Below, piece after piece: positions 7,434 through 39,534 of a stretch of 42,475 bases of DNA (positions are counted from its first letter, which is position 1; each line of letters starts with the position of its first letter). The stretch is from the NCBI GenBank assembly GCA_029063085.1, contig JAIDOW010000042.1:1-42475 (forward strand), read 5' to 3'. The notes beneath the pieces were generated by a model. That model had not been told where the DNA came from. It searched no databases and was given only the letters and a program-made list of their open reading frames with translations. Position numbers and translations under genes: made by a program. This DNA comes from Lachnospiraceae bacterium (GTDB lineage: Bacteria; Bacillota; Clostridia; Lachnospirales; Lachnospiraceae).

Positions 7434-9140
7434 TCACGCCTTTGCTATTTCTTCCAAATAACTCTGAAGGGACATAATCTTAAGCCCGGGAATTAACGCC
7501 CCTCCTTCTGTTGCATCGATAACTGGCATAGCAACATCCTTTTTCTTTGCCCGCCCCGAAATCCACCTGCTGTACATAATAAATAACTTACTTGTTGGAA
7601 CCATTCCTCCTCCGACTGCCGGAACCTGCTGCATTTCCTCTGCCTCTGCCGCTTCTCTCCTTGCAGTTCCTTCCGCATGGGCAAGATTGCCTGTATATGC
7701 CAGATCTAATCCAATAAAAGCAATTGATTTACAGCCTAAGGAAATGCATATATCAAATGCGGTTGTACTGACAGATCCCCCTGTTTCGTAAAGCTGCCAG
7801 CCTTTCTGTTTTGCCAGCTCTTCTGCTTTCTTATAGCCATTTTGACAAATCAAATACTTTTTCCCCTGATAATTCATCGCATACCCTTTATAGGCAGTTG
7901 AAAGATAAAGCATCGGAACCTGTCTGGACTCCAGCCCCTCAAGGTGCCAATATATCCTGCTATTGGCATCTGTTACGATCATATAGTCCACATCAATTCC
8001 AAGATTTAATAGTTTGCGGAACACTGTTTCCACCGCTAAAATCACCATATTGGACTTTTTATTTTTCAAAAGTTCGACATTTTTATCCAGTGACGGTCCC
8101 GCTGCTACTATGATAACATCTTTTCCTTCAAATTCCGGTCTCAATTCATCCACATATCCATCATAATGTTTAAAATTTTCCCGGCTGTTGTTCTCAAACA
8201 AAATTGCGGCATTCCGTTTCCCACTGTCTCTGATAAAAAACAGTTCCATCTGCTCTTTAATTCTTGTATCCTTAATATGACGCAGAGACGGATTATGGAT
8301 AATAAAGTTTTCGGTCTCTTCATCCAAGGCAGAAATAACCTTCTTAAAATCCGGATCATAAACCAGTACAAAATTCTGGTTTGTCCAGATTTCCGAGAAA
8401 TCCACTGCCATCAGACAATGGTAAATCACATCCAGATCACTTTCAAATACCTGTACACAAATTCCATCGTCTAAACGAAACAGTTCATGTATATGATATC
8501 CAAGTCCTAATCCCCACACTAAATAAGATGAACATTCCATAGTATAATAATACCTTGCGAAAGCGGCTGCCTCCCTTTCCGGAGAAATATTGCTGTGATA
8601 ATAATAGCTGCCATCCCCGTCTTGTCCAGCCAAAGTAAATGCCCCGGTATTTGTCGCCTCTAAATGATGGTTCATCTGCCATGTGCCCGCTGCTGTTTCT
8701 CTTTCATATCTCTCATGATAAGCATTTAACTGTTTCCACAAGGATTTGTCATGTTCTTTTAACGCAGACATATTATTCTTCCAGATCCCTGAATCTGTAT
8801 CCACCCCATCATAACTTCGAATCGCTTCCTGAAGAGATTGTAAAAAAGGAACCAGTTGAAGCTCCAATAAATCTGCCAGCAGCACATAATCTTTATTCTC
8901 CTGTGCCGCAAGGATATCCTGTAATGATAGATTGATTCCCTCCAGATTTACCAGTTCTATTTCCTGATTGTAATAGGATAAATCCGCAAATACCTCTTCC
9001 AGCATCTGCATGAATAAATCTGTTACCGTAATAAAATTTCGTACCACACAATCATAATTTTGAATATGGCAGGCATAAATAATTTCATGAATCTGATACT
9101 GTAATTGTGTACTAGTGGTATATATCTGCTGTTTTGTCAT
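7434..9140 (-). CDS. Maf-type flagellin glycosyltransferase (DUF115), copy 1
   Basis: Motility-associated factor of the DUF115 family; these cytoplasmic enzymes attach nonulosonic acids such as pseudaminic or legionaminic acid to Ser/Thr of flagellin before export. The core motif VIIVAAGPSLDKN lies near the middle, followed by MIVTDANSR and, late, IGLDLAYTG and DATEGGA. The first 100 residues form a helical domain with a stretch (YVLLADLLELQLVPFLQ) that matches the separate small protein at 41398-41661. The ATG at 9140 is preferred (GGAGGAGG and AGGAG just upstream); the in-frame GTG at 9191 lies inside an inverted repeat. It follows a flagellin-like gene, as in other flagellin-Maf pairs. Confidence 0.8.
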   Translation of the reverse strand: MTKQQIYTTSTQLQYQIHEIIYACHIQNYDCVVRNFITVTDLFMQMLEEVFADLSYYNQEIELVNLEGINLSLQDILAAQENKDYVLLADLLELQLVPFLQSLQEAIRSYDGVDTDSGIWKNNMSALKEHDKSLWKQLNAYHERYERETAAGTWQMNHHLEATNTGAFTLAGQDGDGSYYYHSNISPEREAAAFARYYYTMECSSYLVWGLGLGYHIHELFRLDDGICVQVFESDLDVIYHCLMAVDFSEIWTNQNFVLVYDPDFKKVISALDEETENFIIHNPSLRHIKDTRIKEQMELFFIRDSGKRNAAILFENNSRENFKHYDGYVDELRPEFEGKDVIIVAAGPSLDKNVELLKNKKSNMVILAVETVFRKLLNLGIDVDYMIVTDANSRIYWHLEGLESRQVPMLYLSTAYKGYAMNYQGKKYLICQNGYKKAEELAKQKGWQLYETGGSVSTTAFDICISLGCKSIAFIGLDLAYTGNLAHAEGTARREAAEAEEMQQVPAVGGGMVPTSKLFIMYSRWISGRAKKKDVAMPVIDATEGGALIPGLKIMSLQSYLEEIAKA

Positions 9141-9176
9141 ATTCTCCTGTTCCTCCTCCGATTCTTCTAATAGCAG

Positions 9177-9320
9177 AAAAGGGACTGCCACACTAAAATC
9201 CCCATCCTTCGCTCTGTATTTTTGACAAAGAATGCTATGCCTTATCGCCTAACTTCCTTTTGTCTCTGTAAAACAGCAGAGCAAAAAGAGAAATCCCTCT
9301 TAGTGTGACAGTCTCCTTTT
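9177..9320. repeat. Long imperfect inverted repeat (large terminator or MITE-like)
   Basis: Arms of about 20 bases, AAAAGGGACTGCCACACTAA at 9177-9196 and TTAGTGTGACAGTC(T)CCTTTT at 9300-9320, match with one mismatch and one inserted base. A weaker inner pair (GCTCTG at 9211 and CAGAGC near 9278-9283) extends the palindrome. It fills the gap between the flagellin-like gene and maf copy 1. The outer arm ends in TTTT on both strands, so it could be a bidirectional terminator with a 100-base loop. No target-site duplication is obvious. Confidence 0.5.
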
Positions 9321-9334
9321 TAATTGTTTTCTTA

Positions 9335-10087
9335 TTAATTTACCTGAATAACTTTTCTCTTCTGTTCCTCTTGTTCCATTCGTTTCTTCTGCATATTAAG
9401 CCTTACCTGCTCTAAAATCTGATTCTTATGCAGATCACTCATCTCTTCTGCCATGTCGGTATCCCGAAGAGAACTAAATGCCGATTCCAGATTATATGAT
9501 GCATTTTGGTTGTTCATAATCGTATATGCAAGACGGTTTGACTGTGCCCCGATAGAGGACTGTGCTGATGTAACCTTTTTTAGTGCATTATCAATATCAC
9601 GAATATCGAACTTCTTTGTCACATCAAAATCTGCAATTCCAAGTTCTTCTAATGTTACGTTCACCAGTTCCATCTCATGTCCCACTCCAGACGGATTCGT
9701 TGCCAGCTCCATAGTTGCCATACTGCCATCTAAAAGCTTTAATCCATTAAATTGAGTATTCCTTGCAATATCTGTGATTCCCTTCTTAAGTTCGTCAATC
9801 TCTGCCTGCATCATAGAAAGCTCATCCTTGGAATAGATTGCTGAATTGGATGCCTGTAAGCCCAGCTCACGAATCCTGCTTAGAGAATCATACATAGAAG
9901 ACAATGCACCGTCTGCTACATTTAAGACGTTGTTGCCTCGCTCTGCATTCTCAACTCCGATGTCATAACCATTCTTCTGGTTCTTAATCTTCTCTGAGAT
10001 AGATAATCCCGCTGCATCATCTGCCGCACTGTTGATCTTATAACCACTCGATAGATTACGGTAATTTCTATCAATACTAAGTGACAT
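9335..10087 (-). CDS. Divergent flagellin with shortened D0 ends
   Basis: Flagellin-family protein of 250 residues. LSSGYKINSAADDAAGLSISEKI (split: LSSGYKINS then AADDAAGLSISEKI) is the conserved N-terminal D1 motif but begins at residue 12, where ordinary flagellins have it near residue 33, so about 20 residues of the D0 helix are absent. The C-terminal D1 motif SSLRDTDMAEEMSDLHKNQIL is present, yet the usual hydrophobic end (as in the flagellin at 41741) is replaced by a charged QKKRMEQEEQKRK tail. The ATG at 10087 follows GAAGGAGG closely, so no longer start exists. Because D0 builds the filament core, this protein may not polymerise normally. It is paired with maf copy 1. Confidence 0.8.
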   Translation of the reverse strand: MSLSIDRNYRNLSSGYKINSAADDAAGLSISEKIKNQKNGYDIGVENAERGNNVLNVADGALSSMYDSLSRIRELGLQASNSAIYSKDELSMMQAEIDELKKGITDIARNTQFNGLKLLDGSMATMELATNPSGVGHEMELVNVTLEELGIADFDVTKKFDIRDIDNALKKVTSAQSSIGAQSNRLAYTIMNNQNASYNLESAFSSLRDTDMAEEMSDLHKNQILEQVRLNMQKKRMEQEEQKRKVIQVN

Positions 10088-10244
10088 AACAACACCTCCT
10101 TCTATATTAACCAAGTGATTTTAATATAGTTAAATATATTTTAACATATTTTTAATCAATCATCAATTCAAAATTATGTTTTTTACCCATTATACAAATA
10201 ATTCGTTTTGCAATCGTCTTTCCTCTATAAATATCCCCTGTCTC

Positions 10245-11099
10245 TCAATTCTTATGTACGTAAGCAAAAATCCCCGCCGTAAACATGATGAGCAATACTC
10301 CTGCACCAAATATAAAATGTAAAACTGTCCCTTCAAAATCCGGCCAGCACCACGTAATAGGTGAAACAATCGTAAACAGCTTTATCCTGTTCGCAATTCT
10401 CCCTATTGTATCTGCAATGCCCCCCTCCCATCCTGTAAGATCCAGCAAATCGGAAAAAAACTGTAACAGTGCAGGCAGTCTTGAAACCAGACATGGCAGA
10501 ATCAGTACCGCCAGTACGGTATCATCTGAAATTCTCTCTACACCTCTATAGCTCACCATAAACAGTGTAATTGCCAGATAAACCAAACAGATCAACCATA
10601 ATAGAGCATAATGTAACAGCATATTTAGTGCCATCTGTAACGAACCAAGTATCAAGGCAAATACCACACTTACTATTAAAAGAGACGCACAGCATACAAA
10701 AGCCTGTCCTCCATACACAAAGCTTTTCCCCAAAAATATTGTTTTCCTGGTAATTCCGGCATTATGCAGATAGACCACAGTTTCCAGCAGATCCTCCTCT
10801 GCCAGAGAATCTGCAACTCCCTTCATCACACTGCATATCAGATAGAATGGATAGGAAAGTGCAAAAAACTGCCATACATTAAACCACAGATGCCTGGTCC
10901 AGCTCTTTAGACACAGAAAATCCCGCAGCATATCTGGCCATTTCATACATTTTTTATTAAATTCCGGCATCAAAGCATCTACCAGTGTACACAAAACAAA
11001 GAGAACCAACACAACTACAAGAGGTGCTGCAATCCGCTTTAACATACTCTGCCGTTTTCTCATCCATTCAAAATAAAGAACGGTTTTCACAAAATCCAC
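10245..11099 (-). CDS. ABC-2-type membrane permease subunit (probable)
   Basis: A 284-residue polytopic membrane protein. Hydrophobic segments are near residues 25-42, 75-92, 128-152, 157-185, 194-215 and 260-281. The arrangement (one early helix, a large loop, then a cluster, with a cytoplasmic NAGITRKTIFLGK segment before the third) resembles ABC-2-type permeases. The start overlaps the end of the degenerate ATPase gene by 13 bases, so the two are translated together and probably form a complex. I cannot name a substrate. It lies between the flagellin-like gene and the sulfate activation genes without an obvious link to either. Confidence 0.6.
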   Translation of the reverse strand: MDFVKTVLYFEWMRKRQSMLKRIAAPLVVVLVLFVLCTLVDALMPEFNKKCMKWPDMLRDFLCLKSWTRHLWFNVWQFFALSYPFYLICSVMKGVADSLAEEDLLETVVYLHNAGITRKTIFLGKSFVYGGQAFVCCASLLIVSVVFALILGSLQMALNMLLHYALLWLICLVYLAITLFMVSYRGVERISDDTVLAVLILPCLVSRLPALLQFFSDLLDLTGWEGGIADTIGRIANRIKLFTIVSPITWCWPDFEGTVLHFIFGAGVLLIMFTAGIFAYVHKN

Positions 11100-12076
11100 C
11101 TCTCATAATCTTTAAATAACATTTCCTCCATTGTAAGCTCTTCTATATTAAAATTCTTACATCCCGTTATACTAAGCCGTAATGCCAGTTCCTTCATATT
11201 CTGCTCTTCATATAAGAAACGGCAATACCCTTTACGTCTCGTAAGCATTGTCATTTTCTCCGACAACATTGGCGAAATACTTCCACCCCACAATGTAACT
11301 ACCTTTGCCGGAACCGGCAACTGATTTTTTGCAAATCTTCCGATTACTTTACCTTCCTTTAAAAATATATAATCATGTGCCGGCAATACTACATCATCAT
11401 AATGTTCCGCTGCCAAGACCACCGTTCCCCCCTGTGCATATAGTGCCACAACCTCTTTTAGCAACACCTTAAAAGTCCTCTCTGTCAGCATATCATAAGG
11501 TCGGTTTAATAATAACAAAGCCGGTTTTGCCATCATCGCCTGAATCACCGATACCAGTCTGTTTTGTTCAATAGTCATCTCCAACAGCAAGTCTCTTACA
11601 TCTATATTAAATAAAGATAGAAGCCGCACCGCCTCATTAATCAGTTCCTGACTGCCGCCCGCCACACCCTGCAAAAATGCTTCTACCGTCAATCCGCTAT
11701 AACGCACAATATCATCCGGTACATACTGAATCGGTTTCAAAAAGGGTTTTGTCTCTTTTTCCACATCAGGCTCTTTACCTGTTCTTGTCACAGCTTTTAA
11801 CCGAGAATATGCAATCTTTCCCGATTGTGTGTTTTCTTCTGCGGGGTGTACTCCTTTTTTCATCCATACACTTTTTAACCCAGGATAATCTGCCTTTCCC
11901 GACTGTATTTTCTGAAGACCTGCTATCACCTTTAGAACCTCGCCTGCACTTCCGTCCTCTGAAATCAATGCCGTCAGATGATTCTCTGTAATATGAAGAG
12001 AAACATCATGCAGTCCAATATTTTGTTGTTCTTTTACTGTCACATGTTCCATTCGGCAAATAATGTTGTCTGACAT
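11087..12076 (-). CDS. Degenerate ABC transporter ATPase-like protein
   Basis: A 329-residue protein with the outline of an ABC ATPase: an A-loop-like start (MEHVTVKEQQNIGLHDVSL), a Walker A position reading SEDGSAGEVLK instead of GxxGxGKST (no P-loop Lys-Ser/Thr at the right place), a signature region TIEQNRLVSVIQAMM lacking LSGGQ, a Walker B position LLLLNRPYD in place of LLLLDEP, and a switch region VVLAAEHYDD that has AEH rather than a free His. It probably cannot hydrolyse ATP in the usual way. About 50 residues of Lys/Gly-rich insertion lie near 70-120. The ATG at 12076 has GGAG 8 bases upstream; an in-frame ATG 40 codons earlier lacks a site. Coupled by overlap to the permease gene. 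Confidence 0.6.
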   Translation of the reverse strand: MSDNIICRMEHVTVKEQQNIGLHDVSLHITENHLTALISEDGSAGEVLKVIAGLQKIQSGKADYPGLKSVWMKKGVHPAEENTQSGKIAYSRLKAVTRTGKEPDVEKETKPFLKPIQYVPDDIVRYSGLTVEAFLQGVAGGSQELINEAVRLLSLFNIDVRDLLLEMTIEQNRLVSVIQAMMAKPALLLLNRPYDMLTERTFKVLLKEVVALYAQGGTVVLAAEHYDDVVLPAHDYIFLKEGKVIGRFAKNQLPVPAKVVTLWGGSISPMLSEKMTMLTRRKGYCRFLYEEQNMKELALRLSITGCKNFNIEELTMEEMLFKDYERWIL

Positions 12077-12226
12077 GTATTTTTCTCCATATATATCTTT
12101 TTTCATTAACACTACTAAGAATCCATAGTTATTTGTCATTAGAGGATATGTCAACGTAATTCCAATATACATCTCATCTATTATTCCTTGACGCAATAGC
12201 TATTCTGTAAACTCGGGAAATCTCCT

Positions 12227-12338: not shown

Positions 12339-14177
12339 CTATTCACCCTCAAAACTCCGTTCAAAAAGCAATTCCATCACCATGTCAGCTGCTTCAGCAA
12401 CTGAACATTTGTCCGTATCAATAATCAATGCCGGATTCACCGGTGGTTCATATCCACTTGAAATTCCCGTAAAATTAGGAATTTCACCATTCCGTGCTTT
12501 TTTATATAAACCTTTCACATCTCTGCGTTCACATACTTCCAAAGATGTACTTAAATAGATTTCAAAAAAGTTGTCCTCGCCAATTATCTCTCTTGCACTT
12601 TCTCTGTCACTAATAAACGGTGAGATAAATGAAGTTAGCACAATCAGTCCTGCATCATTCATTAACTTAGAAACTTCTGCAATACGCCGTATATTCTCAA
12701 TTCTGTCCTGATCTTTAAATCCAAGATTTTTGTTAAGACCCTGCCGAACATTATCCCCATCTAAAGGCATGGTATGCTTATTCATTGCCACCAAACGTTT
12801 TTCTACCTCATTTGCAATAGTAGATTTTCCTGAACCGGAAAGACCGGTAAACCACAACGTAACCGGTTTCTGATCTTTTTGCCGTGAACGGATTTCTCTT
12901 GTAATTTCCATATCATAGGCTATTATATTTTCACTTCTCCGAAGTCCATGCCTTACGATACCGCAGGCAGAAGTCATATTGGTTACGCGATCGATCAAAA
13001 TAAAACTTCCAAGCTCTCTGTTCTTCAAAAATTCGTCAAAAACAATTTTTTCATTAACAGAAATATCGCATCTTGCAATTTCATTTTTATAAATCTGATC
13101 TGCCGGAACATGCTCTCCTGAATTAATATCTACCTTATATTTAATTTTCATGATTACTGCCGGAATTATTTTCGTTCCAAGCTTTAATAAATAATTCTTC
13201 CCCTCAACCAGTTTTTTATCATCCATCCATAAAATAGACGTCGACAACATGTTGCTGAAAGAAAGGGACATATCCTTATACAATACGCAACCTCTGGAAA
13301 CATCCACTTCTCTATCAATGCAAATTGTGACTGCCTGTCCCTTTATGGCTTGATCTGTTTTCTTATCTGCACAGAACAAAGATTTTACTTTTGCCTTTTC
13401 CTTTCCTGGCAAAACAGTAATCTCATCTCCTACATTGATGGTACCAGACTCCACCTGTCCCTGAAAACCACGAAACGTATGATCCGGACGGCAAACACGC
13501 TGTACCGGCATATAAAACCCATCACTATCCTCATTATCTGTAACGTTAATATTTTCCAGATAATGGAGCAATGTGTCCCCTTTAAACCACGGCATATTAG
13601 ACGATGGTTCTGTCAACTGATCCCCCTCCGTTGCAGAAACAGGTATAATGTATAAACTTTCAAAATCAAACTCTGCTGCCAGCATCTTAATCTGTCTGGA
13701 TATTTCTTCAAACCGGGCAGAGTCATAGAAAATCAAATCCATTTTATTAACAGCAAATACCATATGCCTAATTCCCATCATTGCACATATCCTTGTATGC
13801 CGTTTCGTTTGAAGCAAAACTCCTTGTGATGCATCCACTAATATCACTGCTAAATCTGCAAAAGAAGCACCTACTGCCATATTTCTGGTATATTCCTCAT
13901 GTCCTGGTGTATCTGCAACAATAAAACTTCTATTATCTGTTGTAAAAAAGCGATACGCAACATCTATTGTAATTCCCTGCTCTCTTTCCGACATCAGTCC
14001 GTCCAATAAAAGTGAATAATCAAGCATACCATTTCGGCTTCCCACCTTGCTATCCAATTCTAATGCTTTTTTCTGATCTGTAAATATAAGCTTTGCATCA
14101 TAAAGCATATGTCCAATCAGTGTTGATTTTCCATCATCTACACTGCCACACGTAATGAATTTCAATAAGCCTTTCAT
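12339..14177 (-). CDS. cysNC: CysN-CysC fusion: ATP sulfurylase GTPase subunit plus APS kinase
   Basis: Bifunctional sulfate activation protein (NodQ type), 612 residues. Residues 1 to about 425 are a translation-factor-like GTPase: P-loop GSVDDGKST (11-19), switch II DTPGHEEYTRNMA and NKMDL. Residues from about 432 to the end are APS kinase: P-loop GLSGSGKST (445-453), DGDNVRQGLNKNLGF, and the late GISSGYEPP motif. With CysD it turns sulfate and ATP into APS, then into PAPS. It starts at the base after the cysD stop, so the two are coupled. No APS/PAPS reductase or sulfite reductase lies in the window. With CysQ and a sulfotransferase nearby, PAPS is probably used for sulfation rather than for cysteine synthesis. 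Confidence 0.93.
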   Translation of the reverse strand: MKGLLKFITCGSVDDGKSTLIGHMLYDAKLIFTDQKKALELDSKVGSRNGMLDYSLLLDGLMSEREQGITIDVAYRFFTTDNRSFIVADTPGHEEYTRNMAVGASFADLAVILVDASQGVLLQTKRHTRICAMMGIRHMVFAVNKMDLIFYDSARFEEISRQIKMLAAEFDFESLYIIPVSATEGDQLTEPSSNMPWFKGDTLLHYLENINVTDNEDSDGFYMPVQRVCRPDHTFRGFQGQVESGTINVGDEITVLPGKEKAKVKSLFCADKKTDQAIKGQAVTICIDREVDVSRGCVLYKDMSLSFSNMLSTSILWMDDKKLVEGKNYLLKLGTKIIPAVIMKIKYKVDINSGEHVPADQIYKNEIARCDISVNEKIVFDEFLKNRELGSFILIDRVTNMTSACGIVRHGLRRSENIIAYDMEITREIRSRQKDQKPVTLWFTGLSGSGKSTIANEVEKRLVAMNKHTMPLDGDNVRQGLNKNLGFKDQDRIENIRRIAEVSKLMNDAGLIVLTSFISPFISDRESAREIIGEDNFFEIYLSTSLEVCERRDVKGLYKKARNGEIPNFTGISSGYEPPVNPALIIDTDKCSVAEAADMVMELLFERSFEGE

Positions 14178-15077
14178 CTAAAAATACCCCTCTCTTTTTC
14201 GCCTCTCCATACTTCCTGTTTCTTCATGATCAATTACACGACTTGTTCGTTCAGAGGAAACTGCCTTAAGGGTTTCTTCTATTATGGCAGGCAGGGTATC
14301 AGCCGTTGACTCTATACCGCCGGTAAGCGGATAACATCCAAGGGTGCGAAATCGTACCATCTTCCGTTCTATCTGTTCCCCTGGCCGCAGCTTCAAACGA
14401 TCATCATCTACCATAATAATGTTTCCATCCCTCTGGATAACCGGCCTTTCTTTCGCAAAATATAATGGTACAATATCAATATTTTCTCTCTCTATATACT
14501 GCCAGATATCCTTTTCCGTCCAGTTGGAAAGCGGGAATACACGTATACTCTCTCCTTTTTTAATCTTCGTATTATACAATTTCCAAAGCTCTGGTCTCTG
14601 GTTTTTCGGCTCCCATGCATGATTTTTATTACGAAAGGAAAAAATCCTCTCCTTCGCTCTTGATTTTTCCTCATCTCTTCTTCCACCACCAAATGCAGCA
14701 GTAAAACCATATTGGTCAAGGGCCTGTTTCAGGGCCTGCGTTTTCATGATATCCGTATAGGCTGCACCATGATCAAATGGATTAATTCCCTGTTCAACCC
14801 CTTCCTCGTTAGTATAAACAATCATATCCAGACCAAAATCCTTTACTACTTTATCACGAAATGCTATCATTTCTTTAAATTTCCAGGTTGTATCAATATG
14901 CATAAATGGAAACGGTGGTTTTTCCGGATAAAAAGCCTTTAATGCCAGATGCAGCATAACCGAGCTGTCTTTTCCAATTGAATAAAGCATAACTGGTGCC
15001 TCACACTCTGCTGCAACCTCTCTCATAATGTATATGGACTCTGCTTCTAAACTGTCTAAATGACTTAATCCGCTCAT
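14178..15077 (-). CDS. cysD: Sulfate adenylyltransferase small subunit CysD
   Basis: Catalytic subunit of the heterodimeric ATP sulfurylase, 299 residues, normal length. It joins sulfate to ATP to give APS, driven by GTP hydrolysis in CysN. The N-type PP-loop [13 protein letters not shown] starts at residue 33. Other family marks are [15 protein letters not shown], the [15 protein letters not shown] motif, and the C-terminal [20 protein letters not shown] lies 9 bases before the ATG. It is followed without a gap by cysNC, and preceded 79 bases upstream by the CysQ gene, so the three form one sulfate activation and recycling unit. Confidence 0.95.
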
Positions 15078-15156
15078 TCTCTCATTCTCCTCTTTAAATC
15101 AGGTATCCCTTATTCCTATTTATCCAAAGCTACAAAACCACCAATTTTATCACTTA

Positions 15157-15936
15157 CTACCATACATTGTTTATATTATTTACTATGTAAAAGCCTTTCG
15201 CATTTAATGTGTCTTCACGATTATATAATAGTTCACTATGATCCATCTGTTTCACAATTGCTCCTGCCTGTTCAGCAATACAGTGCATTGCTGCTGTATC
15301 CCATTCACAGGTTAACCCAAAACGGTAGTATACATCTGCCTTCTGTTCTGCTACTAAGCATCCTTTTAACGAACTGCCTACCGAAACCGCCTCTGTAATT
15401 TGAAATTCATGTGCTTTTATTAAATCTGCCTCTTTCTCTGATGAATGAGATTTGCTTCCTACCCAAATCAGCTTCTCCGTTTTATTGGAAACCTGCAATT
15501 TTTTTAAACTCTGCGTATCACCATCCAACTTATATGCACCGCCCTCAACAGAAGCATAATACAAATCTTTGGATACGGGTACATAAATTACTCCTATAAT
15601 CGGACGCTGTTGGTACACCAATGCAATATTTACTGTAAATTCTCCATTTTTTTTGACAAATTCCTTTGTTCCGTCTAATGGATCTACGATAAAACAGTAA
15701 TCATTCTCTCTCCGTTTTTTATCGTCCTTAAGTTCTTCCGAAAGCAAAGCATACTCCGGGAATTCTTTTGTTAAAACGGACACAATATACTCATTTGCCT
15801 TTTTATCTGCCAATGTTAAGGGAGACATATCTTCTTTATACCCAACCGTAAAATCCGATTTATATATCTCCATAATGATTTCGCCAGCTTTCACCGCAGT
15901 CTTTTTCATAACTTCTAAAATTTCATCCTGTTTCAC
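15157..15936 (-). CDS. cysQ: 3'(2'),5'-bisphosphate nucleotidase CysQ
   Basis: Magnesium-dependent phosphatase of the inositol monophosphatase superfamily, 259 residues. It removes the 3'-phosphate of PAP, the product left when PAPS donates its sulfate. Visible metal-site motifs are LSEE (near 71-75), DPLDGTKEF (family Asp-Pro-Leu-Asp-Gly-Thr) and the C-terminal CEWDTAAMHCIAEQAGA. I chose the GTG at 15936 because AGAGAGGG lies about 6 bases upstream and the product then fits the CysQ length; an ATG 16 codons earlier has no ribosome site. Its place beside cysD-cysNC and downstream of a sulfotransferase supports the PAP-recycling role over inositol phosphate hydrolysis. Confidence 0.85.
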   Translation of the reverse strand: MKQDEILEVMKKTAVKAGEIIMEIYKSDFTVGYKEDMSPLTLADKKANEYIVSVLTKEFPEYALLSEELKDDKKRRENDYCFIVDPLDGTKEFVKKNGEFTVNIALVYQQRPIIGVIYVPVSKDLYYASVEGGAYKLDGDTQSLKKLQVSNKTEKLIWVGSKSHSSEKEADLIKAHEFQITEAVSVGSSLKGCLVAEQKADVYYRFGLTCEWDTAAMHCIAEQAGAIVKQMDHSELLYNREDTLNAKGFYIVNNINNVW

Positions 15937-15992
15937 TGTTTTCCCTCTCTTATCTGATATAGTATATTTACAATTATATTTCAAATTACGAT

Positions 15993-17003
15993 CTATAACA
16001 TCAGCGTTTTTTCAAAAGATTTATTCAAGCAATATTCCGTTCCAAATCCTTCCTTGAATCTTGATAGTCCTAAATTCAAATATCTTCCTTGATCTTCTGT
16101 ACATATTCCAAAAGTAAAAATTTCTAACCCTCTATCTACCGCTAACGAAATCAAATTATAAATCAAAAAATCCATAGGAAAATATGTTAAATATTTTTCA
16201 TCCGATGATAAATATTGTGTATGCATTATTTTATCATCAAAGAGAAATACCATACTTCCAGCTATCATTTGCTGCCCCTGATACACACCATAAAATTCAA
16301 TATTTTCATTAAATCGTTTTAATTTCAAGTCAAGTAGTTCTTCATATGTATGCACGCTGTTCAAGCCTAACTTTTTTAGGTTTAATTGCAATACTTCATA
16401 AAAACCTTTTATGGATTCTGGCATAGTAAGCTCTTTAAATATCAAATCATTTTTTAACGAATATCTATAATCCCGCCTTTTACTTGAAGAAAATTGGGAA
16501 AGAATATCTTCCTTATATCTTTTAAGCCGCATATAATAATTCAATTCATTATACTGAGTATAACCTCTCTGATACAAAAAATAATCTAATAAATCTACAT
16601 TTTCTCTTGATAAAATAGAGGGGGTCATCTTTAAATAAACTTTTTTAAACCCTTCATTTTTTAAATATTCTTCAAATAAATCCATCAAGACAGAAATACT
16701 GGATGCATTATAAATATTAGGAGATACTATAATCCCACCATACGATGTCCCTTTGTGAGAAAAAAAAACTTTTTCTTCAGCTTCTTTTAATTCACACGCT
16801 AAAATACATGCTATAATTGCATTCCCCTTATATGCTATAAGAGAATAATCCATAAATCTATCTTTGGGATGATATTCAATAAAACGTCTTGTCTGAAGAA
16901 AAGTTCCATTTATGCTTTTTTTCAAAACAAATTCATCCCATTCCTTTTGCATTGTTGATGTATATTTTTCAATTCTGTAATTCATAGATTTTTTCGCCCC
17001 CAT
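15993..17003 (-). CDS. FemAB/GNAT-like acyltransferase
   Basis: A 336-residue protein of the GNAT-like group related to FemAB peptidyltransferases (Acetyltransf_6 type). Marks are the N-terminal WDEFVLKKSINGTFLQTRRFIEYH segment (a charged helix leading to a TFLQT turn), a central SSSKRRDYRYSLKN helix, and the C-terminal FGICTEDQGRYLNLGLSRFKEGFG stretch, which resembles the GNAT-type acyl-CoA site. Such proteins in glycan clusters move acyl or aminoacyl groups to amino sugars; here the FdtA/FdtB amino sugar would be a candidate acceptor. Two starts are possible: the ATG at 17003 or the ATG six codons later at 16985, with a G-rich stretch 11 bases before it. The acyl donor is unknown. Confidence 0.7.
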   Translation of the reverse strand: MGAKKSMNYRIEKYTSTMQKEWDEFVLKKSINGTFLQTRRFIEYHPKDRFMDYSLIAYKGNAIIACILACELKEAEEKVFFSHKGTSYGGIIVSPNIYNASSISVLMDLFEEYLKNEGFKKVYLKMTPSILSRENVDLLDYFLYQRGYTQYNELNYYMRLKRYKEDILSQFSSSKRRDYRYSLKNDLIFKELTMPESIKGFYEVLQLNLKKLGLNSVHTYEELLDLKLKRFNENIEFYGVYQGQQMIAGSMVFLFDDKIMHTQYLSSDEKYLTYFPMDFLIYNLISLAVDRGLEIFTFGICTEDQGRYLNLGLSRFKEGFGTEYCLNKSFEKTLML

Positions 17004-17050
17004 AATTTCATAATACTATATTAGAGACCTTCCTGCTTTTGCAAAATACA

Positions 17051-17704
17051 TCAATCTCCCCATTTAATATTCTCCCGAATCACTTTTACAGGTATCCCTC
17101 CAACCAGAGAATGTGGAGGAACATCCTTTGTAACAACTGCTCCTGCTGACACAACAGATCCTTTACCAATCGTTACTCCCTTTAGAATCATGGCTCCGCA
17201 ACCGATCCATACATCATCTTCTATCACAACCCGTTTTGTCATTTTGTGTTCTGAATAATCTAAATGATGTGCATCCGAATCACGAATAACAACATTCGGT
17301 CCAACAATTACATTATTACCCATTCTAATGGACTTAAAGCAAACTACCTGTACACCATTATTGAAATAACCTGTGCCCAGCTTCAATGTCGCACCTTCTC
17401 CAATCCAGATATCACACCCTGTATAAATCTCCATTCTTCCATTGCAAATTATACGTGCACTTCTTTTCATCGTAATACAAGTTTCCTGATGTGTTTTAAC
17501 ATTTCGTTTTTTTCCTATATCCAATCGGTTTTTGCACATGATATAACTATCTTTTTCCAATACTATTCTTGCATATTTATGGGGAATAATCATTCCAATT
17601 GAATTCTTTTTCACTTGTTTAGTATTTAATTTTATATATTCTAGAATATCTATATCTTTTCCTATGTTCCTTTTTATCCCCATAATAATTTTATCAAACT
17701 CCAA
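17051..17704 (-). CDS. Hexapeptide-repeat O-acetyltransferase-like protein
   Basis: Left-handed beta-helix acyltransferase, 217 residues. Hexapeptide repeats run from about residue 85 to the end ([56 protein letters not shown]), finishing with [15 protein letters not shown] as in maltose/galactoside-type acetyltransferases. DSDAHHLDY (about 137-145) carries the likely catalytic His pair. It should transfer an acetyl group to a sugar hydroxyl or amine. The start is uncertain: the frame opens with TTG at 17704 without a well-spaced ribosome site, and an ATG occurs at 17683. It lies 35 bases after the sulfotransferase gene. Confidence 0.8.
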
Positions 17705-17739
17705 TCCACCGTTAGCACATTATGTACCTTCAACTCAAT

Positions 17740-18960
17740 TTAAGCCTCTTCAACCTTCCACTTGGATTTAAATTTATTAATATCCTCTACACTGTAAAAA
17801 TGTTCAATATATTTACTTGTATAACATTCTTCATAATACTTTTTATCTAGTGGCATATTTTTTTCAACATTCAAATAACTCTCTTTATACCATTTCTCTC
17901 CACTGTCATTTCCAGTTACTAATTCTAAATCCTCTATTCCCAAAAAGTTACCAATTTCGGTTCCCAGACTACTCAATTTTTCAAGCTGATATACCATAAT
18001 ATCCAACCTATCATTAATATGATAAATTGAAAATCCTTTTTCCTTATCAAAAGGATATTGATATATGTCTACTCCAAAAAACGGTTGAATCTGCTGTTCA
18101 AAAAAGTGTTGTACAAGCCAATCACACTTTCTCTTCCTATTAAGCTCTGCCAACCAGCACTTTTTATCACTAATATCCTGAGTTAAATATTTATTAAATA
18201 TACTTCTGACATCTCCTCCTGCATTCCAGTATTCATCCAAATCATAATAGCATGCTCCGCCGCCGCCAGACACTAGTTCATATAATAAGCTTAAATTTTG
18301 TTTTATAGGATCTCTTACACCCATAATTAATTTAACTGGGTATTGGCGAATAAGATTTTGCATGGAAACATCCATATAATTATAAGAATGAAATAACGAA
18401 ATAATATTCTCGCCCCTTCTTTCCACCGAATTAACAACTGTTGTATTCCCAACCTTTGGTGCTGACAACATCAAACGTATATTATCTATAAATTGAAAAT
18501 TATTTATAAATTCACTTTTTATAAAATCAGACTCCATAGAACAATTATATTTCCACTCTATCTCATCAAAAACGGGCTTTAATTCCGGTTCTTTTTGACA
18601 ACATATAAATCTGTTTAACGCTTTCATTCTGTCTCTAAACTCAGAATACCAGATATAACGGTCAATTCCCCTATTTTTTAACTGTTCTGCAATTTCTTTT
18701 TCATATGTACTTCCAATCTGAATAACCGTATTTACATGTTTATGGAAGTACTCTACACATTCATCCACAGAAATAATACTAATCCCCTCAATATCATTTC
18801 CAACCTTATTTGCATCATTATCGACAAAAGCAACTATTTCTATACCGTGTCTATCCAAAAGATGCTTCACTGCATATCCTGCTTTTGAAGCACCAAATAT
18901 TATCACATCATTTTCCTTATATATCTTTAAATCCTTATCAATTTTAGAAAACTCAAACAT
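17740..18960 (-). CDS. Rossmann-sulfotransferase fusion (probable carbohydrate sulfotransferase)
   Basis: A 406-residue two-domain protein. Residues 18 to about 105 are a Rossmann-type domain (VIIFGASKAGYA, then VAFVDNDANKVG) like that in several neighbours. From about 135 comes a sulfotransferase domain: the 5'-phosphosulfate loop SAPKVGNTTV (166-175, Lys169 in place) and the 3'-phosphate motif RDPIKQNLS (216-224), with the Arg and Ser eight positions apart as in known PAPS sulfotransferases. It should move sulfate from PAPS to a sugar of the island's glycan. No signal peptide or membrane helix is present, so it acts in the cytoplasm. AAAGGAG precedes the ATG. The PAPS-producing genes lie four genes downstream. 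Acceptor unknown. Confidence 0.75.
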   Translation of the reverse strand: MFEFSKIDKDLKIYKENDVIIFGASKAGYAVKHLLDRHGIEIVAFVDNDANKVGNDIEGISIISVDECVEYFHKHVNTVIQIGSTYEKEIAEQLKNRGIDRYIWYSEFRDRMKALNRFICCQKEPELKPVFDEIEWKYNCSMESDFIKSEFINNFQFIDNIRLMLSAPKVGNTTVVNSVERRGENIISLFHSYNYMDVSMQNLIRQYPVKLIMGVRDPIKQNLSLLYELVSGGGGACYYDLDEYWNAGGDVRSIFNKYLTQDISDKKCWLAELNRKRKCDWLVQHFFEQQIQPFFGVDIYQYPFDKEKGFSIYHINDRLDIMVYQLEKLSSLGTEIGNFLGIEDLELVTGNDSGEKWYKESYLNVEKNMPLDKKYYEECYTSKYIEHFYSVEDINKFKSKWKVEEA

Positions 18961-19063
18961 AAAATTCTCCTTTACTCACATTCACAAAAACTTCATCTTC
19001 ACTTGCGTATTTAAGAATATCAAAAAATGACTACCTATAGTCAACCATCATTCATGGATCATT

Positions 19064-20047
19064 TCATATAAAATTCATCACCACATTTATAATTGGAGAT
19101 AATATGTATAATCCCTGCCTGATGATATATAATAATACTTTTTCTACAATACCTATTTTTTCATAGCAAAGCAGCCAATAAAATACCCTATACCTATTTT
19201 TTTTACATATATATCGTTCTCTATTAAAACTATCTGCCTGTAACTTAGACATATTTTCAAACAATGTACACAACTGTCCAAAATGTCTTATAACTGTCTG
19301 TAATCGTAATTTCGGATTTATTCTTATTTCTTCATAAATATCCATTGCACTATAAAGATCTTGTAATAGTTTGCTCTTTTTTTTCCAATCTGTCGGATTT
19401 TGCCGGTAAGCAACCATCGGTCTATTAATATAATAAATCTCCCCATATTTCATAAAATAGAATACAATTAAATTATCATCAAAAACATTATGATTCATTT
19501 CTATTTTTTTGACTTTTTTATAGACATTTCTATATAAAAAACATTCGGCAGGAACCCAATACTTACTCCAATATTTCCGTTTAGATATTTTCCCTTCAGA
19601 AAGACACTCTCCATTTACTCTCTTCTGAACAGCTTTATCACTATCATATAGAATTAAATCACATCCACACATCACATATTCCTTATTATGTGATAAAATA
19701 TCAAATTCTGTTTGCAAAAAAACATCTGATACATACAAATCATCGCCATCCAAAAAAGTAACAAACTCACCTTTTGCATATTTTAATAAATTTAGCCGGT
19801 TTCTTGATGCTCGGTAAATAGGATTATATTTTTTATTATAATCCCTAGGCATTTTATAAATCTCTATATTAATGTGTGACCTATTACGTACTTTTTCTAC
19901 TATATCCAATGTAGCATCTGTAGAGCCATCATCACCAACCAAAATCTCATATTCAAAATCTGTTTTTTGACAAAGAACGCTATTCAGCGTTTTTTCAATG
20001 TATTGTTCCAAATTATAGGTTGTTATCAACACTGAAACTGCAATCAT
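19064..20047 (-). CDS. Family 2 glycosyltransferase
   Basis: Inverting GT-A glycosyltransferase, 327 residues. The start VSVLITTYNLEQYI, the nucleotide-binding VGDDGSTDAT (residues 37-46) and the metal-binding FLDGDDLY (98-105) are typical of GT2 enzymes. The last 45 residues are hydrophobic and aromatic, probably a membrane-surface helix or helix pair. I chose the ATG at 20047, with AGGAAGG 10 bases upstream, over an in-frame ATG ten codons earlier. Donor and acceptor sugars cannot be read from sequence. Gaps of about 93 and 103 bases separate it from its neighbours, larger than elsewhere in the island; I see no clear promoter or terminator there. Confidence 0.85.
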   Translation of the reverse strand: MIAVSVLITTYNLEQYIEKTLNSVLCQKTDFEYEILVGDDGSTDATLDIVEKVRNRSHINIEIYKMPRDYNKKYNPIYRASRNRLNLLKYAKGEFVTFLDGDDLYVSDVFLQTEFDILSHNKEYVMCGCDLILYDSDKAVQKRVNGECLSEGKISKRKYWSKYWVPAECFLYRNVYKKVKKIEMNHNVFDDNLIVFYFMKYGEIYYINRPMVAYRQNPTDWKKKSKLLQDLYSAMDIYEEIRINPKLRLQTVIRHFGQLCTLFENMSKLQADSFNRERYICKKNRYRVFYWLLCYEKIGIVEKVLLYIIRQGLYILSPIINVVMNFI

Positions 20048-20140
20048 AGTATTCTTTCCTTCCTGTATTGCCAGCATTTTATCGTTCTGAACTTTTAAAA
20101 ATAGATTCCATCCATTCCTACTTTTATTAAAATCTAACCA

Positions 20141-21211
20141 TTATTCTACCCATGCATATAATTTACGCCAAACATACTTTATTTTATAATTCGGATTTGC
20201 CTCCAAAATAATATCTGTCAAAACAGAAACATCATCAGGAATATGATAGGTACAGATTGATAATTTAGGTGCATATTTCTTCAAAACTTCCTTTGCACCT
20301 TTTAACATTGACCGTTCAGCCCCTTCTATATCAGCCTTTATAAAATCTACACGTTCTAAGCCTTCTTTCTTCACGAACTCATCTAATGTGATAACAGGAA
20401 CTGTACTCTTTTCACCTTCTACATCCGGCTCTAACCTGCTAGAACTCAAATCTTCTGAGCATACAACAAATTCTGCGGTCCCTATATAGTCAGATAAAGC
20501 ATGTGGAAAAACATGAATTTTATCATTATATATATGATTTGTTTTGTTTAAATACTGCCTTCCTATCTCCAACGGTTCAAATGCATAAACATCGCATCCA
20601 ACCTCTGCTGCACGAGCCGAAAACATTCCAAAATTCGCTCCACAATCAATTACAATATCATTTTTTTGAAGCTGTACCTTTTCATACTCATATTGACCTT
20701 CATCTACTTCACTATAATCATTCAAATATGGGAAAAGCAAATCTCTCATCTCTGCCAGCCAAATAAATATTACTTCAAGATTATCTGTACACTTAAATAA
20801 ATTTGCCATCTTAAAGTATCCAAAATCCAAAATATCCTTTTGAAGACTTTCCCTTCCGATAATTTCGTTTAGCTGCATAAATCTTTTAGCAATATAATAT
20901 TCGTGATCCGACAAAAAATAAACATTATGAATATCATGTTCTACAATACAAGGAAAAATATCATTGTAAAATTGTTTTGACGTTCCTATTACCACACAAT
21001 CATTATCTGTATAGGGAAGTTCTGAACATTCATATATAGGAATATTATTTAAACTCTTATCATGTACAAAACCATCTGTAACAACAAAGCCTGCAATTTT
21101 TTTTCCGTAAAAAGCTAAATATTCATATACTGCTTGTCCGTATTTTCCTGTCCCATAAATAAATACTTTCTCCTTTGAGTCTACATAATTCAATAACTTA
21201 TCTGATTTCAT
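20141..21211 (-). CDS. Rossmann-FkbM methyltransferase fusion
   Basis: A 356-residue protein. Residues 15 to about 100 form a Rossmann-type domain (VFIYGTGKYGQAV, GFVVTDG) of the kind repeated in this island. Residues 180-350 are an FkbM-family SAM-dependent methyltransferase: motif I VIDCGANFGMFS (187-198), acidic AFEPLE (210-215), and the FkbM mark VDFIKADIEGAE (288-299). FkbM enzymes methylate hydroxyl groups of sugars or polyketides, so O-methylation of a glycan sugar is likely. GAGGAGG precedes the ATG. The 158-base gap upstream (21212-21369) is AT-rich and holds no gene I can support. Confidence 0.85.
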   Translation of the reverse strand: MKSDKLLNYVDSKEKVFIYGTGKYGQAVYEYLAFYGKKIAGFVVTDGFVHDKSLNNIPIYECSELPYTDNDCVVIGTSKQFYNDIFPCIVEHDIHNVYFLSDHEYYIAKRFMQLNEIIGRESLQKDILDFGYFKMANLFKCTDNLEVIFIWLAEMRDLLFPYLNDYSEVDEGQYEYEKVQLQKNDIVIDCGANFGMFSARAAEVGCDVYAFEPLEIGRQYLNKTNHIYNDKIHVFPHALSDYIGTAEFVVCSEDLSSSRLEPDVEGEKSTVPVITLDEFVKKEGLERVDFIKADIEGAERSMLKGAKEVLKKYAPKLSICTYHIPDDVSVLTDIILEANPNYKIKYVWRKLYAWVE

Positions 21212-21369
21212 ACTTTATTCCTCCTCTACATATCTATCATTTTTGATTTTAATATATTTTTTCATGTATCCTTTTGTGAAATAATATGTTTTACCGATAA
21301 TAAAAAAAGTTATTTTACCTTTACCACAATAGCACAAACAATCTTATTAGTAAAGTTATAAGAAACTAA

Positions 21370-22119
21370 TTAAATATTACTTTCTCTTATACCTGCATTA
21401 ACAAAAATCTCACTCCCGTATTCCGGAAAGTATTTAGTTATATTATATAAACCATTTAAAACATTCTCATCTATAATATGATTCTCTAGCATCTCAAACA
21501 TCTGTTTATGCGTAAATGGTTTAAGAAAATAAGAACCCGTTTCAATAACTTTAAAACCCGCAGCCTCAACAACATTACAAAACTTTTTTTTATCATAAAC
21601 TTCATGCTGCTGTAACAATACATTTCGCTCGGACATTTCAAACACATTATCTACAAATCCCATTTCCTTTGCCAAAAGTCTATGAAATGAATTCGCATTT
21701 GGAACATTTATGTGTACGATCGTATCCTTGTTGCATATGTGTACAATATTTTCTAACAATCCAATCGGATCTTCTACTTCATGTAGTAAACCAGAACAAA
21801 TAATAAAATCTAATTCACCACTTTTCAATTCTTCAGAAGCTGCAAAATAATCATTTATGCAATTTACTTTTTCATTTTTTGCAGACAAACACATGGCATT
21901 TTGGTAAAACTCCTTGCCCGGCTCAACTACAATATATCGTTCGTAATCCTCATGATCAAGATATTTAAACAATGGTTCCATTCCGCACCCGATTTCTAAT
22001 ATTCTTCTGTGCGGATACTCCTTCAAAGTTTCTAAAACTTTTTTTCTTCTATATGCTACCTGATAATCTTCAAATCCATGAATCATATAATTTTGTTCAT
22101 AATCTTCTATATCTCTCAT
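21370..22119 (-). CDS. Class I SAM-dependent methyltransferase
   Basis: A 249-residue methyltransferase. Motif I is RRILEIGCGMEPLF (38-51), followed by an acidic IVVEPG at the end of strand 2 and a LDFIICSGLLHEVEDP strand-4 motif. There is no extra domain. The fold suits methylation of a small molecule or sugar, but the HEVED-type motif is also found in enzymes acting on lipid or carrier-linked substrates; I cannot decide. AGGGGAG lies upstream of the ATG, and the gene follows the FdtA-like gene by 11 bases. The long gap downstream may mark an internal operon boundary. Confidence 0.75.
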   Translation of the reverse strand: MRDIEDYEQNYMIHGFEDYQVAYRRKKVLETLKEYPHRRILEIGCGMEPLFKYLDHEDYERYIVVEPGKEFYQNAMCLSAKNEKVNCINDYFAASEELKSGELDFIICSGLLHEVEDPIGLLENIVHICNKDTIVHINVPNANSFHRLLAKEMGFVDNVFEMSERNVLLQQHEVYDKKKFCNVVEAAGFKVIETGSYFLKPFTHKQMFEMLENHIIDENVLNGLYNITKYFPEYGSEIFVNAGIRESNI

Positions 22120-22130
22120 TAAAATCTCCC

Positions 22131-22544
22131 CTATTTCAATTCCTTATCCGCCTTAATAAAATGTAAAAACTCATCATAATCCCTTATATAATCATCTTCA
22201 TTATACACTTCTGATGCTAAACACATCAGCACGGCATCTGATGAAAAATCATACATTTCTCTCCACATATTATTAGGTACATATAATCCCTCGTATGGTT
22301 TTTCCAAAAAAACTTTTTTCTTTTCATATCCATTATCTAACAATATTTTACATGAACCATGAATACAAACCAATATTTGTTCCAAAGATTTATGGGCATG
22401 ATATCCTCTGACTACCTCTTTTTTCGTATCATACATATAATAAACTCTCTTGATTTCAAAAGGTATATCATTATATTCTTCCAATGAAACCAGCTGCCCT
22501 CGCTCATCTCCATGCTGTTGAAATTGATATTTTACAATCTGCAT
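22131..22544 (-). CDS. dTDP-4-oxo-sugar 3,4-ketoisomerase (FdtA/QdtA-like)
   Basis: A 137-residue cupin of the WxcM/FdtA group. The motif RGYHAHKSLEQ (46-56) holds the two active-site histidines (His49 and His51 in this numbering) and the Arg-Gly typical of dTDP-4-keto-6-deoxyglucose 3,4-ketoisomerases. The next strand ends in GSCKILLDNG. With the aminotransferase encoded 10 bases upstream it should make dTDP-3-amino-3,6-dideoxy-galactose (Fuc3N) or the gluco form (Qui3N). The ATG at 22544 has AGGAGG 6 bases upstream. The dTDP-glucose pyrophosphorylase and dehydratase needed first are not in the window. Confidence 0.85.
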   Translation of the reverse strand: MQIVKYQFQQHGDERGQLVSLEEYNDIPFEIKRVYYMYDTKKEVVRGYHAHKSLEQILVCIHGSCKILLDNGYEKKKVFLEKPYEGLYVPNNMWREMYDFSSDAVLMCLASEVYNEDDYIRDYDEFLHFIKADKELK

Positions 22545-22554
22545 TATATTCCTC

Positions 22555-23643
22555 CTAAAAAGCATTAACCGCCTGAACAACTTTATCCATTTCCATCTCT
22601 GTCATACCACACCAAATTGGCAATGATAATTCTGTGTCCGCAATATTCTCAGCCACTGGAAAATCTCCTTTTTTGTATCCCAATTCCACATATGCCTCTT
22701 GCAAATGCACTGGTATCGGATAGTGAGTCTGTGTCATAATTTCACATTGTTTTAAATAGTTTTGCAGGCTATCTCTTTCTTCACAAAATACTGAAAAAAC
22801 ATGCCATACGTTATCTATATCGGAATATTGTGGTAATTTTATTCTATCATTATGAATATTCTCCAAATAATATTTTGCAATTTTTCTTCGCTCCTGTGAC
22901 CAATCATCCAAATATCTTAACTTTACTCTAAGAACAGCTGCTTGAAGTTCATCCATCCTGGAATTAAATCCTTTGTATATATGATGATACTTAATATTAG
23001 AGCCATAATTACGAAGCGCTTTTGCTTTTTCGTAAAGGTCCTTATCACTCGTTACAATTGCCCCCGCATCACCTAATGCACCAAGATTTTTCCCCGGATA
23101 AAAACTAAACCCTGCCGCATCACCTAATGCACCCGCTCTCTTCCCATCTATTATTGCACCATGTGCCTGTGCGGCATCCTCAATAATTTTGAGACTATAA
23201 CTATTTGCAATATCCCTAATTGCTTGAACATCTGCCAGTCTACCATATAAATGTACTGGCATAATGGCTTTTGTATTCTTTGTAATCTTTTGTTCAACTA
23301 ATGCGGGATTCAAATTATAAGTATCTTCCAACACATCAACAAATACTGGAGTGGCACCACAATAACTGACCGCCAGTGGTGTGGCTATAAAAGTATCTGC
23401 CGGAACAATCACTTCATCACCAGCACCTATTCCACACGCTTCCAAAATAATATGCAAAGCATCCAGACCATTTCCTACTCCAATGCAATACTCCGTACCA
23501 CAATACGCTGCATATTCTTTTTCAAACAGCTCTAGTTCATTGCCAAGAATATACCACTCTGCATCTATTACTTGATTAATTGCACTTTCCATTTCACCTT
23601 TTATTCTTTTATGCATTCTCTCCAAATTTATGTACGGAATCAT
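22555..23643 (-). CDS. DegT/DnrJ/EryC1 aminotransferase (FdtB/QdtB-like)
   Basis: PLP-dependent sugar aminotransferase, 362 residues. The PLP lysine is Lys185 in [13 protein letters not shown]; other marks are GVGNGLDAL (56-64), [13 protein letters not shown] (80-92), the DVLEDTYN strand and EDAAQAHGA (155-163). Paired with the FdtA-like isomerase it probably aminates carbon 3 of a dTDP-6-deoxy-3-ketohexose. I chose the ATG at 23643: GGGGTGAT, close to the ideal AGGAGGTGAT, sits 7 bases before it. The N-acyl step of the Fuc3NAc/Qui3NAc pathway could be done by either acyltransferase downstream. Confidence 0.88.
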
Positions 23644-23692
23644 AAACTCCATCACCCCATTCACATTACTTTTCAATACCTAAGTCAGTAAT

Positions 23693-24757: not shown

Positions 24758-24789
24758 ACTATCACTCTCTATACTTTCTTTATATTTAA

Positions 24790-25893: not shown

Positions 25894-25912
25894 AATTAAC
25901 AGCCTTTCCTTT

Positions 25913-27613: not shown

Positions 27614-27639
27614 AAAAATCCTCCCAAAAAGCCTATTGA

Positions 27640-28656: not shown

Positions 28657-28668
28657 TATAACAACTCC

Positions 28669-29154: not shown

Positions 29155-29190
29155 TATCTTTTCCTCTCTTTCATATAATAATAAATGTTT

Positions 29191-30465: not shown

Positions 30466-30500
30466 ACTTTTCCCCTTTTCTCTCAAGCAATTCTTTTTCT

Positions 30501-32279: not shown

Positions 32280-32315
32280 GATTTAACTTCTCCTCATTTA
32301 CTGTCTGCTCTGTTA

Positions 32316-34631: not shown

Positions 34632-34702
34632 ACTTTATTTCCTCCACAGTTTGTAATCAATTTTGCTCTTCAAACTCTGTCTCATAGATTATGGAGATTT
34701 AC

Positions 34703-34731
34703 AAGATACTATCATGCATAATCCATGTGAA
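34703..34731 (-). promoter_or_regulatory. Weak candidate promoter for the glycan operon
   Basis: On the minus strand TTCACA (34731-34726), 17 bases, TATCTT (34708-34703), about 75 bases before the HAD gene start. The -35 matches 5 of 6 and the -10 only 4 of 6 consensus bases. Alternatively the operon is read from the promoter upstream of the CDP-glycerol transferase gene. Confidence 0.25.
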
Positions 34732-34776
34732 TTTCCTTCCCATTAGTATAATGTTTTCGGATATTCCAATCTGTCA

Positions 34777-39533: not shown

Positions 39534-39534
39534 G

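Follow-up and report, generated by a model that had tools for sequence, protein, structure and literature searches.

The presence of sulfate activation genes among genes for flagellin glycosylation raises the question of what a bacterium of the Lachnospiraceae family uses activated sulfate for. The genes in question lie at positions 12339-18960 of a 42,475-nucleotide stretch of DNA (hereafter, the window), which is the entire contig C49 (JAIDOW010000042.1) of a 3.34-Mb assembly (GCA_029063085.1; completeness 96.45%). All of them are located on the minus strand, and they encode a CysN-CysC fusion (CysNC), CysD, CysQ, a FemAB-like protein, a hexapeptide-repeat transferase, and a sulfotransferase-like protein of Pfam family PF10364, referred to below as the NKWYS protein. 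We consider it probable that this run makes 3'-phosphoadenosine 5'-phosphosulfate (PAPS) and spends it to sulfate a sugar of a flagellin glycan in the cytoplasm.

In the proposed scheme, CysD together with the CysN part of the fusion would convert sulfate and ATP to adenosine 5'-phosphosulfate (APS), the CysC part would convert APS to PAPS, and the NKWYS protein would pass the sulfuryl group of PAPS on to a sugar that the neighboring genes supply. CysQ would clear the 3',5'-bisphosphate nucleotide (PAP) left after the transfer, and Maf transferases would attach the sulfated sugar or glycan to flagellin before export, with sulfation presumably preceding attachment. Synthesis of APS and PAPS and removal of PAP would follow from the established functions of the protein families, and sulfate transfer from the predicted fold and the site residues, with a reservation concerning the catalytic base. 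The acceptor sugar and its attachment to flagellin are suggested by gene position.

The NKWYS protein and its predicted PAPS site

The sequence-only reading of the window had noticed both PAPS-binding motifs of sulfotransferases in the NKWYS protein, and both were found again: APKVGNTTV at residue 167 and RDPIKQNLS at residue 216, the latter with Arg216 and Ser224 eight apart. The protein comprises a Rossmann-like N-terminal domain (approximately residues 1-110) and a sulfotransferase domain (approximately residues 150-406). It scores 71.9 bits with PF10364 (gathering score 25.1), a model that matches all 42 aligned sequences (E up to 0.01), and its only other Pfam matches at E up to 1 are CoA_binding and PglD_N. 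No match to Sulfotransfer_1, _2 or _3 was obtained at that threshold; among the 42 sequences, Sulfotransfer_1 was matched weakly in four and Sulfotransfer_2 in one. Since the window protein has no such match and its relatives match weakly and in small number, the protein is not filed under these Pfam families. Its placement among sulfotransferases, checked by profile and structure comparison, was retained on the basis of PDB profile matches and fold matches of the domain model. Heparan sulfate 3-O-sulfotransferases and N-deacetylase/N-sulfotransferase, which are animal Golgi enzymes, share 10-13% identity with it.

Residues were counted in 42 sequences, namely 39 of the 43 open reading frames (ORFs) found, the window protein, and two copies from genome G188. 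Fragments or cut genes (L141:10240, L144:7953), an ORF of opposite orientation (L141:11882), and another of partial similarity (L118:10268) were left out, and the genes of the first alignment from G111, G022, G108, and G195 were represented through their L-numbered loci. A contig profile search with the single window protein returned no relative, and a search with the NKWYS alignment returned 34 loci. NKWYS domains also occur on the viral contigs L145, L146, and L147, the last with three copies.

In the domain model, a strand followed by a helix surrounds the 5' phosphosulfate loop containing Lys169, a position occupied by lysine in 40 of the 42 sequences and by arginine in two. At the 3' phosphate site, Arg216 is invariant (42/42), and Ser224 is present in 38 sequences, with alanine in the other four. 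The window protein keeps all three residues, together with Asp298, Phe388, and further family residues. As judged from sequence and model, it is very likely a sulfotransferase, although Pfam does not name its family as such.

PAPS synthesis and its association with NKWYS proteins

The genes named in the sequence-only reading (CysD, CysN-CysC, CysQ, and the motif protein) were all recovered in place on the minus strand, and CysNC, CysD, and CysQ each exceed curated NCBIfam cut-offs (Table 1). CysD, CysQ, and both domains of CysNC (CysN and APS kinase) contain the motifs expected of their active sites, and Walker motifs are present in both domains of CysNC. Unmentioned in that reading were the FemAB-like and hexapeptide-repeat genes, which separate CysQ from the sulfotransferase gene. 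The gaps from CysNC to the sulfotransferase gene measure 0, 79, 8, 47, and 35 bases (0 between CysNC and CysD, 8 between CysQ and the FemAB-like gene), which makes a single transcript plausible; consensus scans of the window for promoters and terminators gave results close to those of shuffled sequence and were uninformative. The G+C content of genes is 0.29-0.35 across 15993-22580, compared with 0.36-0.41 in the cys genes and approximately 0.39-0.43 in the left flank (2-12 kb), and the island consequently looks like a mosaic.

That no APS/PAPS reductase or sulfite reductase accompanies these genes proved true beyond the window. Across the whole assembly, PF01507 matched two CysD proteins and one DUF3440 protein and no PAPS/APS reductase (CysH), and PF01077 detected no sulfite reductase, although it matched 11 of 14 control genomes; at 96.45% completeness, these absences are not absolute. 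CysH was sought in the own genome, and PF01077 both there and in 250 genomes drawn from the Lachnospiraceae (the draw).

Within this draw, NKWYS proteins were found in six genomes and a CysNC fusion over the cut-off in 26. As to co-occurrence, of the kind that the sequence-only reading had proposed to examine, the fusion is present in 5 of the 6 NKWYS genomes vs 21 of the 244 without NKWYS (Fisher p 4.7e-5), and the sixth, G108, encodes CysD-, CysN-, and CysC-like proteins by separate genes. CysD over the cut-off was detected in 10 of 12 further NKWYS genomes outside the draw. At most a few genes separate NKWYS from cysD and/or cysNC in the window, G111, G022, L118, and L124 (loci L115 and L122 being G111 and G022 again), and in L125 it is approximately 5 kb from cys genes, on the opposite strand. 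In the CysNC tree, the window protein is separate from those of L038, L039, L118, and L124, and a grouping of the five, chosen after the first tree had been viewed, was rejected (approximately unbiased test, p 3.1e-5); given this rejection, the NKWYS-CysDNC pairing probably arose more than once. Taken together, the family and profile matches, the fold, the co-occurrence, and the genome-wide lack of reductive genes give good support to a PAPS module whose last step is sulfate transfer. The CysDNC-CysQ genes of G111 are followed directly by an ABC importer of the binding-protein type (a binding protein, two permeases, and an ATPase; L038:16169-19911), which possibly supplies the module with sulfate.

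A second cysD-cysNC pair, also unmentioned earlier, is located on contig C1 of the own genome, its genes being 78% and 66% identical to those of the window; together with the gene after it, the pair spans L034:9569-13684. It is followed by a gene (L034:12521-13684) encoding a protein, termed here ST2, with the motif HIGTPKTATTS and Arg and Ser eight apart. In the ST2 family, which was found near CysNC in eight other genomes of the draw, the start is of HIGTPKT type, and Arg and Ser eight apart are invariant in 12 of 12 sequences. ST2 gave no Pfam match at 0.001, no PDB sulfotransferase match up to E 1, and no profile similarity to NKWYS; its motifs make it a candidate sulfotransferase. By our criteria, a sulfotransferase-like gene lies near CysNC in 16 of the 26 CysNC genomes (nine on motif alone), comprising three NKWYS, four Pfam Sulfotransfer, one identified by motif alone (L100), and eight ST2. 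None was noticed near CysNC in the remaining 10 in a scan of part of the neighbors, and one of these 10, L082, has an arylsulfotransferase.

Flagellin, Maf, and glycan genes of the island

The flanks of the run do hold flagellins and Maf transferases, as earlier noticed, according to matches to PF00669/PF00700 and PF01973/PF20157, respectively, and flagellin adjoins Maf in the window. Contig C17 of the own genome has flgK-flgL-fliD-fliS at its end, along with a flagellin that shares 93% identity with the partial flagellin of the window (flg and fli names other than flagellin were assigned from protein starts and gene order). In G188, a member of the same genus, contig C2 carries a flgK-flgL-fliD-fliS-type cluster, a flagellin, and two Maf-like proteins (33% and 37% identity to Maf2), and the stretch read ends with PseF and NeuB proteins 77% and 90% identical, respectively, to those of the window. 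Contig C13 of G188 starts with a glycerophosphotransferase gene and encodes two NKWYS copies (58-59%), Maf1 (62%), and CysQ (70%), next to a carboxyltransferase gene that is also found in the window. From gene order, we infer that C2 adjoins C13 in G188 and that C17 adjoins the window in the own genome. In G022, which represents another genus, one contig holds a flgK-flgL-fliD-fliS-type cluster with flagellin, then sugar genes, two MptE-like proteins (436 and 438 amino acids; the Maf N-terminal model is absent in the one scanned), and CysQ-NKWYS-CysD-CysNC approximately 27 kb downstream of the flagellin.

Flagellin was found in 17 of 18 NKWYS genomes searched, compared with 129 of 250 in the draw. 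The 18, used for the flagellin and MptE-like searches, are the six of the draw and the 12 others in which CysD was sought; 15 further NKWYS loci, mostly weaker and from other groups, stand outside these searches.

Table 1. Features of the window; all positions refer to the 42,475-nucleotide stretch.
Feature	Position	Strand	Evidence
Maf-type flagellin glycosyltransferase 1 (Maf1)	7434..9191	-	PF01973 1.9e-37; PF20157 over cut-off
Short flagellin, atypical start and end	9335..10114	-	PF00669, PF00700; profile match begins at position 23
ABC-transporter-like gene pair	10245..12196	-	One gene matches ABC_tran weakly; the second has no family
CysN-CysC fusion (sulfate adenylyltransferase GTPase subunit and APS kinase)	12339..14177	-	NF004035 831.5 bits (cut-off 715); APS_kinase 2.6e-65
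CysD, sulfate adenylyltransferase small subunit	14178..15077	-	TIGR02039 499.3 bits (cut-off 396.6)
CysQ, 3'(2'),5'-bisphosphate nucleotidase, PAP disposal	15157..15984	-	TIGR01331 237.1 bits (cut-off 228.8)
FemAB/GNAT-like acyl or aminoacyl transferase	15993..17003	-	PF02388 7.2e-11
Hexapeptide-repeat transferase	17051..17704	-	PF00132 1.3e-13
NKWYS-family sulfotransferase (predicted)	17740..18960	-	PF10364 6.6e-20; PDB profile matches; fold matches; conserved Lys169, Arg216, Ser224
Glycan-building genes: GT2, FkbM and MT23 methyltransferases, FdtA, DegT aminotransferase, NDP-sugar epimerase, GT1, AsnB, TOD1-like, GT2, sulfatase-like, HAD-like, glycerophosphotransferase	19064..36072	-	Pfam/NCBIfam scans
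Sulfatase-like (alkaline-phosphatase-like) protein, second candidate sulfate transferase	30501..32279	-	PF00884 3.5e-5, below cut-off
NeuB-like nonulosonate synthase with cupin	36987..38483	-	PF03102 2.3e-44; under NCBIfam equivalog cut-offs
PseF-like CMP-sugar synthase	38787..39557	-	TIGR03584 2.6e-36, below cut-off; PF02348
Maf-type flagellin glycosyltransferase 2 (Maf2)	39535..41394	-	PF01973 9e-38; PF20157 just under cut-off
Flagellin cut by contig end	41741..42475	-	PF00700, PF00669; match extends to base 42475

The short flagellin seemingly lacks the first approximately 20 usual residues and has a charged tail at its end. Other flagellins with late profile starts, 255-289 amino acids long, occur in G022, G251, G257, G258, and G261. 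Of its 37 main ORFs, the window has four without a family, one of them being part of the ABC-like pair, which recurs in the G188 island at 36-39% identity. According to the translations and in part to family scans, a small Rossmann-like domain seemingly recurs in the proteins at 17740-18960, 20141-21211, 27640-28656, 28669-29154, 29191-30486, 30501-32279, and 32316-34631, fused to sulfotransferase, methyltransferase, glycosyltransferase, sulfatase-like, or HAD-like parts; a common docking or sensing role is possible.

Competing explanations and known systems

Several of the results that follow weigh against sulfation of a flagellin glycan by the NKWYS protein. The module might instead sulfate another surface glycan or a small molecule, flagellin proximity being a coincidence or a matter of shared sugar use, an explanation that we regard as unlikely though worth serious attention. 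No flagellin was found on the contigs that carry the NKWYS-CysDNC modules of G111, L118, L124, and L125 (the L118 contig starts only shortly ahead of its NKWYS gene, and the L125 contig is 15 kb long), so the NKWYS family is not flagellin-specific; in G111, the module is adjoined by UDP-galactopyranose mutase and the ABC importer. CysNC loci of the Lachnospiraceae often adjoin other sulfotransferase types, and in the draw the link between NKWYS and flagellin (6/6 vs 129/250) reaches a p of only 0.018. Moreover, cysD is near NKWYS in only 5 of 37 loci compared (up to 10 kb on each side), and the other loci, including all from other phyla and the viral contigs, have no cys gene in the compared stretch, which is often short. 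G195 and G108 have no cys genes near their NKWYS genes, and CysQ alone shares a contig with NKWYS in G188; since CysDNC of G188 is located on another contig, adjoining other sulfotransferase-like genes, PAPS can be a shared pool. On the other hand, the module lies in an island adjoining flagellin genes in both the window genus and G022, the NKWYS gene is retained and duplicated in the G188 island, and family scans (E up to 1 or 0.01) listed no family of lipid-linked glycan export or polymerization, whether initiating transferase, flippase, or polymerase, for any of the 37 main ORFs. Position in two genera and this lack of lipid-linked glycan families support a sulfated flagellin glycan, as first proposed from the sequence, by genomic rather than chemical means.

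It is improbable that the window NKWYS protein is non-catalytic and that PAPS feeds another transferase, such as ST2 or the sulfatase-like protein encoded at 30501-32279. In the sulfotransferase superfamily, a His or Glu after the second strand serves as the general base, and the spacing in known enzymes would assign this role to His193, which is near-invariant (38/42) and replaced by tyrosine in the window protein. The position is also occupied by tyrosine in L112 and L113 and by cysteine in one G188 copy, so that most of the window subgroup lacks the histidine. Also weighing against the favored explanation, the full-length model (pLDDT, a model confidence score, 73) had no sulfotransferase among the matches listed (at least 50), which were mainly Rossmann proteins; the sulfotransferase domain was for this reason modelled alone, with the 42 sequences, and Foldseek gave no match for that model at E 0.001 or better. 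Both glycan sulfotransferases of Halobacterium belong to the alkaline-phosphatase-like superfamily (PMC11980604), which makes the sulfatase-like protein a second candidate that could, by analogy, be the sulfating enzyme in place of NKWYS; it has no useful match in the PDB and no relative in the 37 loci compared (tblastn 1e-5). Against a loss of catalysis, the other site and family residues of the NKWYS protein are intact, tyrosine at 193 recurs in three diverged members and thus appears more a subgroup trait than decay, and the other G188 copy retains histidine. The histidine two positions before it, His191, is conserved in the window protein and both G188 copies.

Least of all do we expect the cys genes, classic as they are for assimilation, to serve cysteine synthesis and to stand in the island by chance, a disfavored role given that the own genome has neither CysH nor PF01077, and that PF01077, although present in 121 of the 250 genomes and in 15 of the 26 with CysNC (absent from 11), occurs in two of the six NKWYS genomes and is missing from four.

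The arrangement favored here, cytoplasmic sulfation of a flagellin glycan, resembles rhizobial NodP-NodQ and NodH, in which a dedicated sulfate adenylyltransferase with a CysNC-type fusion is paired with a carbohydrate-decorating sulfotransferase. The product of that system is a secreted lipo-oligosaccharide signal, whereas here a PF10364 enzyme is encoded within a flagellin glycosylation island. Maf-type islands combine flagellin, Maf, NeuB-like, and PseF-like genes with sugar-modifying genes, as does the window, which differs in including sulfate activation and a sulfotransferase. BT0416 of Bacteroides thetaiotaomicron presumably also neighbors a cys module. This enzyme, likewise a sulfotransferase of a gut bacterium, has been connected with cholesterol sulfation (PMC9417993) rather than with an island for flagellin or glycans. 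In Halobacterium salinarum, archaellins and the S-layer bear a sulfated N-glycan that depends on two sulfotransferases from the glycosylation cluster, Agl30 and Agl31 (VNG1056C, VNG1057C), whose deletion has only a minor effect on motility (PMC11980604). The likeness lies in sulfotransferases from a glycosylation cluster and a glycan on a filament protein; that system is archaeal, N-linked, and of the archaellum, with enzymes that lack the PAPS sulfotransferase fold of the NKWYS protein, and its description nowhere uses the word PAPS (PMC11980604). Agl30 and Agl31 are nearer to the sulfatase-like protein of the window, a likeness of superfamily only. In the literature searched, which included few subscription journals, we found no Maf-type island with sulfate activation and a sulfotransferase, no sulfated bacterial flagellin, and no mention of NKWYS or PF10364, which is no proof of novelty.

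More tentatively, several flagellated gut Lachnospiraceae lineages may have independently linked PAPS synthesis to PF10364 proteins, a hitherto unrecognized family of sulfotransferases, and at least two genera may sulfate flagellin glycans in the cytoplasm, which would be the first sulfated bacterial flagella. If so, sulfate would join the known modifications of bacterial flagellin, PF10364, a Pfam family named merely as putative capsule synthesis, would gain a function, and concrete genes and genomes would be available in which to look for flagellin heavier by 79.957 Da. Sulfate could alter filament charge, mucus binding, and host recognition, with a bearing on host sensing and on what the sulfatases of other gut bacteria can strip.

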